From assembly GCA_903839085.1 (NCBI GenBank), contig CAIMBE010000163.1, positions 1 to 64,000 of the forward strand: a stretch of 64,000 nucleotides of DNA, in the 5' to 3' direction. The notes beneath the pieces are model-generated. The model had not been told where the DNA came from, searched no databases, and saw only the letters and a program-made list of their open reading frames with translations. Both the position numbers and the translations under genes were made by a program. Below are positions 1-58,881 of the stretch, piece by piece. This DNA comes from an uncultured beta proteobacterium (GTDB lineage: Bacteria; Pseudomonadota; Gammaproteobacteria; Burkholderiales; Burkholderiaceae_C). Position 1 is the first letter of the stretch. Each line of letters opens with the position of its first letter.

Positions 1-3000
1 ATTTCGCCGTTCTTGCGTTTGTTCCAGACCTCGCCCGACCAGTGGCCGCTGGCAAGCAGATCGCCCCACATGGCGACGTAGAACTCTTTGGTCTGGCGCC
101 CCGACTGCAGGATGCGCGGGTTTTGACCCAGCACCTCCTCGTGGCTGTAGCCGGTGATTCGCGTAAAAGCGGCGTTGACATCAATGATGCTGCCGTTGGA
201 ATCCGTGATCGTGACGCCCTCACGGGCATGGTTGAAGACGTTGGCGGCGAGTTGGAGCTTGGCATGGGCATTTCTGCGCTCGGTGATGTCCTGGATGAAG
301 CCCAAGACCCTGAGCGGCTTTCCCTGTGTGTCCTTCTCAAGCCGGCCGACCGAGTAGATCACCTTGGGCGATGAGCCGTCGGCGGGCTTAATCACATACT
401 CAACTTCATGCGTCATCCCATCGCTGATCCCCGCAGCCAGGATCTGCCCAACACGATCACGGTCTTCGATGCAGGCCAGAAAATCCTCCAGGGGGTAATC
501 CCGGACAACTGGCGGAAATCCGAACAAGGCGAGGCCGTGGGCCGAAGGGCGCATTGCGTTCGACGCAATGTCATAAACCCACGAACCCGTGCCGCCTATC
601 TGCTGCGACGCCGCCATCTGTGACTCGCTCAGGCGCAGCCTCTCTTCGCTGCTCCTCAGGGCTTGTTCTGCCATTCTGCGCTCAGTGATGTCTCTTGCGA
701 CGCCGAAGAAGCGCAGCGGCCTGCCTTCTGCATCGAACTCGGTCTCCATGAAGGTCTCGGTCCAGCGCTGCTCGCCATCAGGCCGAACCAGGCAGTAAAC
801 GATATCCTTGATGGTCTGGCCTGGCCTGAGTTCAAGCATCCGTCTCATGCAGTCAGCGTGGTAAGCACGGAAGTCTTCGCGAATCCACGACGTGAATGTG
901 TCGTAGTTCAATTCGACAGAGTGGGGCTCCCGGCCAAAAATTCGCCACAGTTCGTTCGACCACTCGATGGCAGCGCCAGCCACTTCATATGACCAGTTGC
1001 CCACGTTCGCAATCGCTTCCGCCCGAGCCAGGCGACCTTGGCTTTCTTGAAGGGCTTGTTCTGCCAGTTTGCGCTGTGTGATGTCCCGCATGATGGTGGA
1101 CAGGAGTTCCGGGTTTCCATGTTCATCGCGGTGGACCATTAACACCTGAGAGACGGGCGTCTCATGGCCGTCCCTGTGCAGCAAGGCGGTTTCGCCATGC
1201 CAGAACCCTTGCTTGAGCACAGCAGGAATGCCTTCCTCCATCACCAATCGCGTTGCCCACTGCGGGTGCATATCCTTGATTTCCAGCGCAGACAAGTCAA
1301 CGTCCTCAGCAAGCCCGACCAGCCTTGCACCGGCCCGGTTCATGTACTTGAGATGAGCCTGCATATTCGATGTGGCAATGAAATCCGGGGCATCTTCAAT
1401 GATTGCCAGCAGGCGTTTGCGTTCCCTCTCTGCCCTCTTGCGCTCGGTGATGTCCTGGATGAATCCATAGATTCTTCGGTGCTCCAGATCCGCTCTTCCG
1501 ATGGCGTGAACGTCGCGCCGATTGCCTTTGGCGGTGATGATTGCCGATTCGATATCAAAAGGTTGGCCATGGTCAACCGCCCGGCGCACCGCTTCCTGCA
1601 CAAGCGCCCTGCAGTCAGGGGCATAGAAATTGATGCCCTTCTCAACCGTCGGACCAAGGTCGGAATCGACTTCATGGATGCGGTAAACCTCCTCTGTCCA
1701 GGTCTGTTTTTCGCTATCGATATCAAACGCCCAGCCACCCACTTTTCCGATTCTTTCGGTCTCGGCGAGAAGATTGCGGCTTTGCAGCAGCGCGTGCTCG
1801 GCCCGCCGGGCTGCCACCACATCCCAGGCGATGTCGGCAAGCCGGGACACCGTCTCAACATCGCTCTGGTCGTAATTCGCGGGCTTGTTGCCGACTCCCA
1901 GAATCCCCACAATGAGCTCGCCGCGCAGAATCGGCACCACCAGTTCCCGCCTGACCGGCGCATGGCCCGCGGGCAGTCCCTTGCGGTGCGCCAGGCTGGG
2001 GTAGTCGTTGTGGATGACAGGACGGCGTTCGTGAATGCAATCGACCCAGACGCCGGCCTGATCCACCGAGTAGTGTTGCATCTTGCCATCGGCGGTACAC
2101 ATTTCCCGCAGCGTGCGTGTAGACCAGTCCTGCAGCCACAGCGTCTTTTGATCGGCCTCCAGGAAGTGAAAAAAGCCGATCTCGCTCCCGGTCAGAAGTT
2201 CGGCCTCGTCCAGTGTCTGGGTGAGCAGTTCCTCCAGGGAATGACCCAGTCCGTATTGCCTCAGGCGCAGGCTGGCCTGCAGGAACGCTTCGGCCTTCTT
2301 GCGCTCGGTGATGTTGTTCATCACAGACTGAACGGCGGGCTTTCCGTCGTAGGAAATCACCGCTCCCTGGACCTCAAGATCCATAATGACGCCATCGAGC
2401 TTGAGGGCTTTCAACTCAAACAGGCGAGCGTCGCCGCCATGTTCGGAAAGATACTTTATGCGCTCCAATATGATCTGACGAAAGTCAGGGTGAACCCATT
2501 CAAGTATCGGTGCGCCCAGAAGTTCATCCGCAGAACCTGCCCCAAACATTTTCATGGCTGCGGGATTGACATATAGCACTTTGCCGTCGCGGTGGACGAC
2601 AAGCGCCTGCGGCGTCAACTCGACCAAGGAGCGGTAGCGCTCCTCGCTTTCACGCAGGGCGTCTTCTCTTGCTTTCAACCTCTCCGTCAGGCGGTTAAAT
2701 TCGACGACAAGTTCGCCGATTTCGTCCTCAGAGGTGATGGGCAGGGGTTGTGTGGCCATCTCCATCTGCGACTGGGCGGCCAGCATCTTCGCGGTAGCAA
2801 GAATCGGTGCAATTTGACGCTTCAACCACCACCAAGTCAGCGAACCCGCAAGTATCGTCAGCAACATCGTCGCCACGACGACACGATGCTGCATATCGTA
2901 AATCGGCGCAAAGGCTTCCGCGGTAGGAATTGTTGCGACCACCCCCCAACCTGCCACTGGAACGGCCATTCTTGAGGCAAGCACATCGACCGCCTGAAAG

Positions 3001-3755
3001 TTCCTATAGACGACCGTGCCATTGACCCCCCCGACGAAGCGGTCAACTTCCGGGTTGACGCCAGGGGCAGGTAAGTTGGTCAGTATTCGACTCTTGTCGG
3101 TAGCAGTGACAATCAGTCGATTCTTGTTCTCGACAAGAAGATAGCCTCCGGTCTTGCCATACGTCGCGTTCGTAATTTTGTCCAGAAAATTGGGCAGACC
3201 CAGATTGATGGTGCTGACCAAGGTACCGACCACCTCGCCCTGACCATCAAGAACGGGAACCACCATGGCGAAAACTGGAGCCTTGAGCGTCTTGCCCATG
3301 TAAGCGCTTCCAATGACTGCTTTGCCTTGCCTGAGCGGCACGCTGATGGACTCCCTGTCCATGTAATTGGTGCCAACCCGACCCGCCACTACCGGGAAAT
3401 CCGCTATGGCCGTGCCATCGAGTCCGGTGATGAAGGTGCCGCCATTAAAGAGTGGGAGGAGACCCGCTTGCTCCTCAAGAAACGCCTTTGCGCTTGCACC
3501 GCTTGCCAGGACGGTCGGACTCATGCGACCCGCAACGCTTTTCAACACTTTCAACCTGTCCTCAAGCGCCTGATTGACCTCCGCGGCCACAATGGAAACA
3601 GTTGAGAACTGTTGTTCGCCCATCACCCGTTGCATATCCCTGCGCAACGTGCTGCTGACGTACGCCGCCAGCGACCAGATACTGATCATGAAGATGGCCA
3701 GAGTGAAGAGGGTTACCCTGGTTTTGATCGAGTTCCACCAAACAATATCGTTCAT
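1..3755 (-). CDS. Membrane sensor: N-terminal TM + Cache-like periplasmic domain, HAMP, about 6 PAS and one GAF domain; output domain lies beyond the window edge (probably GGDEF/EAL); partial
   Basis: Manual reverse-strand translation from ATG at 3755 (MNDIVWWNSIKTRVTLFTLAIFMISIWSLAAYVSSTLRRDM...) stays open to base 1; repeated PAS ends (NNITERKKAE, GFIQDITERK, TIMRDITQRK, VARDITERR). Missing from the ORF track because it has no stop inside the window. Confidence 0.85.
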   Translation of the reverse strand, partial: MNDIVWWNSIKTRVTLFTLAIFMISIWSLAAYVSSTLRRDMQRVMGEQQFSTVSIVAAEVNQALEDRLKVLKSVAGRMSPTVLASGASAKAFLEEQAGLLPLFNGGTFITGLDGTAIADFPVVAGRVGTNYMDRESISVPLRQGKAVIGSAYMGKTLKAPVFAMVVPVLDGQGEVVGTLVSTINLGLPNFLDKITNATYGKTGGYLLVENKNRLIVTATDKSRILTNLPAPGVNPEVDRFVGGVNGTVVYRNFQAVDVLASRMAVPVAGWGVVATIPTAEAFAPIYDMQHRVVVATMLLTILAGSLTWWWLKRQIAPILATAKMLAAQSQMEMATQPLPITSEDEIGELVVEFNRLTERLKAREDALRESEERYRSLVELTPQALVVHRDGKVLYVNPAAMKMFGAGSADELLGAPILEWVHPDFRQIILERIKYLSEHGGDARLFELKALKLDGVIMDLEVQGAVISYDGKPAVQSVMNNITERKKAEAFLQASLRLRQYGLGHSLEELLTQTLDEAELLTGSEIGFFHFLEADQKTLWLQDWSTRTLREMCTADGKMQHYSVDQAGVWVDCIHERRPVIHNDYPSLAHRKGLPAGHAPVRRELVVPILRGELIVGILGVGNKPANYDQSDVETVSRLADIAWDVVAARRAEHALLQSRNLLAETERIGKVGGWAFDIDSEKQTWTEEVYRIHEVDSDLGPTVEKGINFYAPDCRALVQEAVRRAVDHGQPFDIESAIITAKGNRRDVHAIGRADLEHRRIYGFIQDITERKRAERERKRLLAIIEDAPDFIATSNMQAHLKYMNRAGARLVGLAEDVDLSALEIKDMHPQWATRLVMEEGIPAVLKQGFWHGETALLHRDGHETPVSQVLMVHRDEHGNPELLSTIMRDITQRKLAEQALQESQGRLARAEAIANVGNWSYEVAGAAIEWSNELWRIFGREPHSVELNYDTFTSWIREDFRAYHADCMRRMLELRPGQTIKDIVYCLVRPDGEQRWTETFMETEFDAEGRPLRFFGVARDITERRMAEQALRSSEERLRLSESQMAASQQIGGTGSWVYDIASNAMRPSAHGLALFGFPPVVRDYPLEDFLACIEDRDRVGQILAAGISDGMTHEVEYVIKPADGSSPKVIYSVGRLEKDTQGKPLRVLGFIQDITERRNAHAKLQLAANVFNHAREGVTITDSNGSIIDVNAAFTRITGYSHEEVLGQNPRILQSGRQTKEFYVAMWGDLLASGHWSGEVWNKRKNGE

Positions 3756-22897: not shown

Positions 22898-24412
22898 CTA
22901 TTCGATTTCGACAATCTCGGTGACCGCAAGCGCTGAAATATCGCGCAATTTTTCATAGCGCGGCGAAGCCAGATCGACCAGTTCGGAGACCCGCGAGTAG
23001 CTGGCCTTGACGAACACTTCGTTTTTTTCATGATCCTGGCGCTTGACGCCGAAGCGCAACTTGCCGCGCTCCTCTGTGGAGAGTTTTCCCATCATGTTCT
23101 TGGTCGCCCACAAGGAACCGTGCCGCGCCAGATCGGACAGCCGGGCGGCATGGTTGATGGTGTCACCGAGCACGGTGAATTCAATCTTGGTGTCAATGTG
23201 AAATACACCCAGCCACTCATGACCTTCGTTCAGGCCGGTGTTCAGATACAACTCGTTGAGCCAGTTCTTGCGCAACTGCCATTGCTTGCTGATTTTTCGC
23301 ATTGCCTCGCGAATCTGGTTGGCGCAGCGCAGCGCGTTGTAGACGTAATTGCTGTCGGGTTGCGGGAAGAAGTAGTAGACCATGCCATCACCGACATGCT
23401 TGCCGTGCGTGCCGTAATAACGGCGGAAAATGGGCTCCATGGTGGCCCAGATCTGGTTGATGAGTTCAAAGTATTCCTCGGGCGGCAGTTCGGAGCATAT
23501 GCGCACGGAACCCTGCAGGTCGGCCACCATGACAGCGACGTTGGTGAGCACGGGCCGGCGCGCCTTCAACAAATTGCGGATCAGGTCGTCGCGCTTCTCA
23601 AGCATGCCAAGCAGGCTGCTGTGACCCGTTGTGTCGCTGGCAAAGATCACCAGGATGCCTTCGCGAAAGCGCGAGGCATAGACCCGGAAGTGCTCCTCGA
23701 CGCCAGACGGTGAAATCAGGACCAGCGGCCAGTCGGTGATCGGACGGGTGGCGCCCGGCGCGGGACCGGCAGCGGGCTGACCCGGCGCCGATGGCAGGGG
23801 CACGCGCCCCATCTGCTTGTGTATTTGCAGGAAGGCCTCGCGATTTTCCTGGCTGCTGCCGTACTGTCCATTCGAGAAAAAATCGATGACACTGCGTTCC
23901 TTGGTGTCCGCCGGCAAGCGTTCGAACGATCCCAGCAGCGTCATCTGGGCCTGCTCGTTGTACCAGCTAAGCTCCAGGTTGTAGTTCATCATGTAAGCGG
24001 CGCAGGGCAACTTGTCGATCGTCAGACGCAAGGGACCCGTTTCCGCACCTGGGAATTTTCCGGGGTCAACCGATGCCCGCGATGTGATGGGGGCATGCAG
24101 CGCCATCGGCGCCCCGGGTCCTGACAAGGTCGCTACCGGCGCCTGCACGGGCGTCACCTCCAGGACTCCCTGAGACAGTTCGCGGGCGATATCGGCCATG
24201 CTCATTCCTTGCCGCTTTTGGGACTTGATGTGTTCGATGCGCTCGATGACCTCCTGCGGAAAATAGCCGATCTGTCGCGCTCGGGTCTTTGAATCCTCAT
24301 CGGGATTTCGGACGATGGGCTTGGGCAGGAGGCCCAGGGCAATGTAGTTGTGCAAGGTAGCGCGCGAGATACCGGATACCTGCATGACTTCAAGACTGCT
24401 TAACATGATCAT
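22898..24412 (-). CDS. MerR-type HTH + PAS-like domain + class III adenylate/guanylate cyclase
   Basis: N-term SSLEVMQVSGISRATLHNYIALGLLPKPIVRN...IGYFPQEVIERIEHIKSQKRQGMSMADIARELS; middle AYMMNYNLELSWYNEQAQ; C-term VAVMVADLQGSVRICSEL, GKHVGDGMVYYFF, FTVLGDTINHAARLSDLA. Confidence 0.85.
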   Translation of the reverse strand: MIMLSSLEVMQVSGISRATLHNYIALGLLPKPIVRNPDEDSKTRARQIGYFPQEVIERIEHIKSQKRQGMSMADIARELSQGVLEVTPVQAPVATLSGPGAPMALHAPITSRASVDPGKFPGAETGPLRLTIDKLPCAAYMMNYNLELSWYNEQAQMTLLGSFERLPADTKERSVIDFFSNGQYGSSQENREAFLQIHKQMGRVPLPSAPGQPAAGPAPGATRPITDWPLVLISPSGVEEHFRVYASRFREGILVIFASDTTGHSSLLGMLEKRDDLIRNLLKARRPVLTNVAVMVADLQGSVRICSELPPEEYFELINQIWATMEPIFRRYYGTHGKHVGDGMVYYFFPQPDSNYVYNALRCANQIREAMRKISKQWQLRKNWLNELYLNTGLNEGHEWLGVFHIDTKIEFTVLGDTINHAARLSDLARHGSLWATKNMMGKLSTEERGKLRFGVKRQDHEKNEVFVKASYSRVSELVDLASPRYEKLRDISALAVTEIVEIE

Positions 24413-24437: not shown

Positions 24438-24600
24438 GATTTAGACAGTCTGATATTCAACTGTTTAGACTGTTTAGTCAAGCCACTTTCGCCACCGCAG
24501 CGCCAATTTACTTGGCTTGTGTTGCAAATAGGTTGAACTCAACAGCGACCGTCCAACTAACAAGTATACAGTCTAACTGTAAACTAGTCTGTATATTTGG
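24438..24600. promoter_or_regulatory. Cluster of TTTAGACWGT / ACAGTCTA repeats, including near-perfect inverted repeat TATACAGTCTA-N9-TAGTCTGTATA
   Basis: TTTAGACAGTCT (24440-24451), tandem TGTTTAGAC TGTTTAGTC (24462-24479), inverted repeat arms 24565-24575 and 24585-24595 (10/11 pairing). Confidence 0.55.
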
Positions 24601-24660
24601 ACCGTATAACCACTGTCGCCACCGTCATCAACAACCGACTGCCACAGGACCCTTGCCATG

Positions 24661-58800: not shown

Positions 58801-58881
58801 TCGGTCGCGGACCGCTTGCCTTGCTTCTTGAGGCATGCGTGGTACGCCCGGCTCGGTAATTGGACTGTCTAAACGGAGCCT

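Follow-up and report, generated by a model that had tools for sequence, protein, structure and literature searches.

The gene at 22898-24412 on the minus strand of the window, i.e. the 64,000-nucleotide stretch of DNA analysed here, encodes a 504-residue protein that combines a MerR-type winged helix-turn-helix (wHTH) domain, a PAS-fold domain and a class III cyclase domain, as read from the open reading frame (ORF) and Pfam matches. Based on the promoters of this gene and its relatives we consider it probable that this one-component sensor and predicted adenylate cyclase is a dedicated transcriptional autoregulator, most plausibly an autorepressor. The MerR-type wHTH would recognize the palindrome TTRGACWGTYYAA at the gene's own promoter, and occupation of these operators, including the one inside the -35/-10 spacer, would most likely block RNA polymerase so that the gene is repressed.

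According to the ORF listing the gene starts with an ATG at 24412; a longer ORF with a TTG start (to 24481) overlaps the predicted -35 box, and this start is unlikely to be the true one. From the N- to the C-terminus the protein comprises the wHTH (residues 1-85), a disordered linker, the PAS-fold domain (residues ~125-262), a helix and the cyclase domain (residues 288-503/504). The window's own genome contains one full-length copy and five other places that match the cyclase domain only. A census of the architecture, proposed in an earlier sequence-only reading of this DNA, established by search and BLAST check that the fusion is real and recurs in ~80 independently assembled genomes, mostly from Betaproteobacteria and some from Alphaproteobacteria, and thus is neither an assembly artefact nor a product of chance. 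Isolates with full-length relatives include Novimethylophilus kurashikiensis, Sulfurisoma sediminicola and a Polynucleobacter. The distribution is patchy, with full-length relatives in 9 of 37 genomes from the window's genus, 13 of 399 of the order, 2 of 369 of the class and 5 of 399 of the phylum (the window's own genome counted in each case), and a plasmid search found no full-length member.

The N-terminal domain (24158-24412, minus strand), already recognized as a MerR-like HTH in the sequence-only reading, matches the Pfam family MerR_1 over residues 8-80 (E 2.2e-5; 24.9 bits against a cut-off of 21.6), as do 40 of the 42 aligned members at E 0.01. Structure prediction with AlphaFold2, using an alignment of these 42 members, resolves every domain with confidence and yields a winged HTH with helices 6-13, 17-25, 54-67 and 72-85 and wing strands 33-35 and 48-52; pLDDT values of 10-residue blocks range from 88 to 97 in this monomer model, and a separate model of residues 1-262 agrees. 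The alignment places the recognition helix region, SRATLHNYIA, at residues 16-25 (24338-24367, minus strand), and the helix motif SRATL[N/H]NY is present in 80 of 81 aligned members. A long coiled-coil dimer helix following the wHTH is missing from the monomer model, where helix 72-85 is followed by a disordered linker (residues 84-128). Compared with classical MerR regulators the protein thus has the MerR-type N-terminal wHTH and lacks two further hallmarks, the coiled coil and the long promoter spacer.

Reading of the upstream DNA first revealed that the 13-bp near-palindrome, with the half-site TGTCTAA, is repeated upstream of nearly every member of the family, typically in 2-6 copies. A strict pattern is 228-fold denser in the 300 bp upstream of the genes (54 occurrences in 24.7 kb) than in the rest of the loci (7 in 730 kb), and a symmetric matrix detects 178 sites of at least 14 bits across 70 of 80 promoters as compared to a mean of 1.66 in dinucleotide shuffles. 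As motif and matrix were derived from the same promoters that were then scored, an additional matrix was trained without the window's genus; it recovers four operators of the window (19.9, 13.6, 19.4 and 15.6 bits), and these constitute four of the five matches of at least 13 bits within the 64 kb. The sequence-only reading had named the gene's own upstream region as a target to be tried, and the conserved operator array at this very promoter fits that suggestion.

In the window, the predicted promoter consists of a -35 box, TTGACT (24476-24481, minus strand), and, after a 17-bp spacer, a -10 box, GAATAT (24453-24458, minus strand). The latter has three mismatches to TATAAT and is weak if taken alone, and a strict promoter scan makes no call here; the assignment of both boxes draws support from the like arrangement in relatives. 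One operator covers the -10/start region (24439-24455; 19.6 bits, or 19.9 bits with the leave-genus-out matrix) and another lies in the -35/-10 spacer (24463-24479; 15.2 bits). Two or three more are located ~100-150 bp upstream, at 24562-24578 (18.6 bits), 24582-24598 (15.1 bits) and, weaker, 24595-24611 (13.6 bits); the spacer operator and the first two of these are also found by the leave-genus-out matrix, which scores the weaker one below 13 bits. A 15-bp direct repeat (93%), with copies at 24483-24497 and 24610-24624 that lie 127 bp apart, adjoins the two operator clusters and points to a duplication of the promoter block.

Throughout the family the sites keep fixed positions relative to the promoter; with the beginning of the -35 box as reference, one group has its centres at +11/+34/+57 and another at -14/+19/+40. 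In 31 of the 51 called, σ70-like promoters an operator centre falls within the -35/-10 spacer, which is the classical place of MerR binding (PMC5859096), and PdeL, another HTH protein fused to a signalling enzyme, activates its own expression (PMC5052742). The protein might hence be a MerR-like autoactivator or ligand-switched regulator that binds the spacer and, by ligand-driven remodelling of the promoter or by PdeL-like activation, establishes positive feedback. We regard this as unlikely, as the called spacers measure 16-18 bp, in a search that permitted 16-19 bp, and thus fall short of the 19-20 bp found in classical MerR promoters, as the model is devoid of the coiled-coil dimer helix, and as further operators cover the start site. 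Spacer length and the operators over the start site are also the reasons why we prefer autorepression.

Relatives in which the HTH was lost or its recognition helix decayed serve as natural controls. Where the helix is intact, each of the 79 promoters tested carries sites, 75 of them with a site of at least 11 bits. The remaining four (L046, L056, L057 and L060) each retain at least two TGTCTAA-like half-sites, which are further apart, with a centre wider than in the 13-bp palindrome; this subgroup hence suggests that the distance between half-sites is flexible. Among 1,024 background segments only 0.9% reach the 11-bit mark and 1.3% the two-half-site mark. In all four HTH-less or helix-decayed genes, which represent three independent events, operators are missing. 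In G056 and G920, two species of one genus, the gene begins after the HTH and is preceded by no operator, one match of 11.0 bits only just reaching the mark. Genome G1026 has a second full-length copy, L148, in which the helix reads SRAALQSYK, the catalytic residues are lost and there is no operator. L086 has intact cyclase motifs but a helix decayed to SRAVLNSLV, and operators and half-sites are gone, so that the presence of the operator goes with the HTH rather than with the cyclase. The link between HTH and operators is strong, though the three independent losses behind it are few. In a further locus (L055:3360-6179) the cyclase gene is interrupted by a transposase gene that sits between the HTH and PAS domains.

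In the genomes checked, the motif is essentially private to the cyclase gene. Pattern matching in 12 whole genomes, with the reversed pattern as control, showed no genome-wide excess, i.e. with one mismatch allowed the motif was not commoner than its reversed control, G064 being a possible exception (42 versus 24). We thus reject a broad regulon, and the result fits a dedicated autoregulator rather than the site of a global regulator. The exact sequence TWNGACWGTYYAA occurs, without mismatch, at one place in the window's own genome (58860-58872), as part of a lone near-perfect operator (58858-58874; 21.6 bits) between the converging ends of a ygfZ-like and a GNAT-type gene, which is either a chance occurrence or a relic. 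Perfect sites inside holB of L103, L104 and L117 are coding coincidences, as they encode a GLGQSK motif, and sites in acyl-CoA dehydrogenase genes, which encode GGQFKW, look likewise coincidental.

The sequence-only reading had proposed a DNA-binding cyclase that would place cNMP synthesis at a promoter or couple the cyclase state to transcription. For sequence-specific DNA binding the conserved private operator and its absence upon HTH loss provide support that is indirect but strong.

The C-terminal domain (residues 288-504; 22901-23551, minus strand) is a complete class III cyclase domain, and AlphaFold2 models it with a cyclase fold. The Pfam family Guanylate_cyc matches residues 290-445 (E 1.1e-10; 41.9 bits against a cut-off of 21.9) and is found in all 42 of 42 aligned members; the closest solved structures, by sequence as well as by fold (Foldseek), are the class III adenylyl cyclases CyaB (3r5g; 2e-13) and CyaC (1wc1). 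The two metal-binding Asp motifs and the GDTIN-HAAR motif, noticed already in the sequence-only reading, are present and show little or no variation in 81 relatives; the same holds for the individual residues, i.e. both metal Asp residues (D298, D342), K338 and the transition-state residues N420 and R424. Position 413 is variable (Thr in 34 of the 81 members, Ala in 24, Val in 22 and Ile in one). The window copy has a Thr, T413, which we take to be the likely partner of K338 in the adenylate specificity pair (Lys plus Thr/Asp), as in CyaC, and the K338/T413 pair predicts cAMP as product, i.e. an adenylate cyclase. Outside the window's clade ATP specificity is less sure, because the partner of K338 is Ala or Val in 46 of 81 members.

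Alternatively, the cyclase domain could bind ATP or cAMP purely as an allosteric input and form little product, so that the protein would mainly be a transcription factor. Such a role has been proposed for Mclx2 and Mclx3, where catalytic residues are missing (PMC4452763), and the degenerate paralogue L148 is in line with it, but all six active-site positions checked (D298, K338, D342, E411, N420 and R424) are intact in 80 of the 81 members. Such conservation would be hard to account for if the protein were not catalytic, and makes this role improbable. Immediately downstream of the intact gene, L071 has a degenerate paralogue (1590-3203) that lacks the HTH and has altered cyclase motifs, possibly an inactive partner subunit. 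The window's own genome encodes nine proteins with a cNMP-binding domain; in a search for a cAMP receptor the motif was readable in five of the nine, among which only a SulP-like transporter has a cyclic-nucleotide motif that looks canonical.

The weakest alternative is that some other regulator binds the upstream motif and the HTH of the cyclase protein has a different role or target, for which there is room as the motif is known from sequence only, yet this is very improbable, given that the motif is not enriched genome-wide, that the gene would be nearly the sole target of such a regulator in ~80 species, and that the operators vanish with HTH loss or decay while the cyclase part remains.

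The middle domain (residues 125-262; 23627-24040, minus strand), noticed as a PAS-like segment in the sequence-only reading, adopts a PAS fold in the AlphaFold2 models and matches PAS domains in the PDB (best E 1e-3, Foldseek). It is probably the sensor of the protein. The MmyB-like ligand-binding domain (MLTR_LBD) is matched by 19 of 40 relatives (best E 9e-4); the three printed scores, 13.4-15.7 bits, are below the curated cut-off of 26.3, and the window copy has no match to this profile. A PAYMVN...W.N motif in the middle domain has the same spacing as the conserved residues P110, A111 and N124 of MltR, whose crystal structure contains a fatty acid (PMC3406030). We do not claim a fatty acid as ligand of the PAS-fold domain, the MmyB-like match being weak and a lead only. 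Genes for a 3-hydroxyacyl-CoA dehydrogenase and a thiolase are found near the cyclase gene in nine loci (L042, L044, L047, L048, L072, L074, L083, L084 and L091), and together with the weak MmyB-like match these neighbours are a lead towards an acyl ligand. Neither a His nor a Cys is invariant in the PAS region, and this speaks against a conserved site for heme or a cysteinyl flavin. In 11 loci (L032, L035, L037, L039, L040, L063, L069, L076, L089, L090 and L094) the neighbourhood of the cyclase gene includes genes with GGDEF/EAL domains of various kinds, hinting at a link with c-di-GMP signalling; a partner gene conserved family-wide was not found in the loci of the relatives.

Alignment and model show a conserved helical connector, RRDxVIRxLL (residues 265-287; 23552-23620, minus strand), between PAS-fold and cyclase domains. 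The state of the PAS-fold domain may be passed via this helix to the homodimeric cyclase, which would make cAMP. As both the DNA-binding and the catalytic part probably need dimers, a change in ligand state could act on DNA binding and cAMP synthesis as a joint switch. The sequence analysis itself shows the architecture, its conservation throughout the family, and an operator array that is private to the gene and missing where the HTH is lost, and from these we infer physical binding, repression, catalytic activity and specificity, a ligand and coupling. More tentatively, and with less than even chances in our view, the family may consist of ligand-gated, DNA-bound cyclases in which operator occupation and cAMP synthesis are mutually exclusive or drive one another. 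If so, the enzyme would report a signal and at the same time count its own copies at the promoter, making it a cAMP counterpart of the trigger enzymes on a MerR-type scaffold. The system provides a clear DNA sequence to test, natural versions of the protein that lack the HTH or have a decayed helix, and a route to ask directly whether second-messenger synthesis and DNA binding are coupled in one bacterial protein; moreover, wHTH and compact operator could serve as parts for controlled cAMP production.

Fusions of an HTH with a signalling enzyme are already known. PdeL (YahA), a 'trigger' phosphodiesterase from Escherichia coli, consists of a LuxR-type HTH and an EAL domain and binds and activates its own promoter (PMC5052742). 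The cyclase protein resembles PdeL in that an N-terminal HTH is fused to a second-messenger enzyme and putative sites are located at its own promoter. Nevertheless, the two are not homologous as a whole: PdeL has a LuxR-type HTH, its EAL domain degrades c-di-GMP, and it activates itself from a single imperfect palindrome far upstream, whereas the cyclase protein combines a MerR-type wHTH with a PAS-fold and a class III cyclase domain and has several operators over its promoter. Mclx1-3 from Mycobacterium (Rv0386, Rv1358 and Rv2488c) also unite a class III cyclase and a LuxR-type HTH in one protein (PMC4452763), but in the order N-terminal cyclase, central ATPase, C-terminal HTH, as opposed to N-terminal wHTH, PAS-fold domain and C-terminal cyclase. 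That work describes no operator array for Mclx1-3, and they, too, are not homologous to the cyclase protein as a whole. CyaB, CyaC and the photoactivated adenylyl cyclases share catalytic fold, active site and an upstream sensor, but lack a DNA-binding domain. In MltR and MmyB-like regulators an HTH precedes a PAS-like ligand-binding domain whose P-A...N motif is equally spaced (PMC3406030), but their HTH is of the Xre type and they have no cyclase.

For the DNA-binding part, BldC from Streptomyces, a MerR-like protein of 68 amino acids that binds direct repeats at several adjacent DNA sites (PMC5859096), is a better model than a classical MerR regulator. The two have in common a MerR-type wHTH that lacks the long coiled-coil dimer helix, and several adjacent sites, which are putative for the cyclase protein. 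BldC has no other domains and uses direct repeats, whereas the cyclase protein has two additional domains and a palindrome as its site. In the open literature searched, which leaves most subscription journals outside, we found no description of a MerR-cyclase fusion or of this architecture. The combination of a MerR-type wHTH, a PAS-fold domain and a class III cyclase with its own conserved operator array is thus undescribed within that literature, and we claim no priority. What this analysis adds to the known HTH-enzyme fusions is the conserved, private operator array of a cyclase with a MerR-type wHTH.
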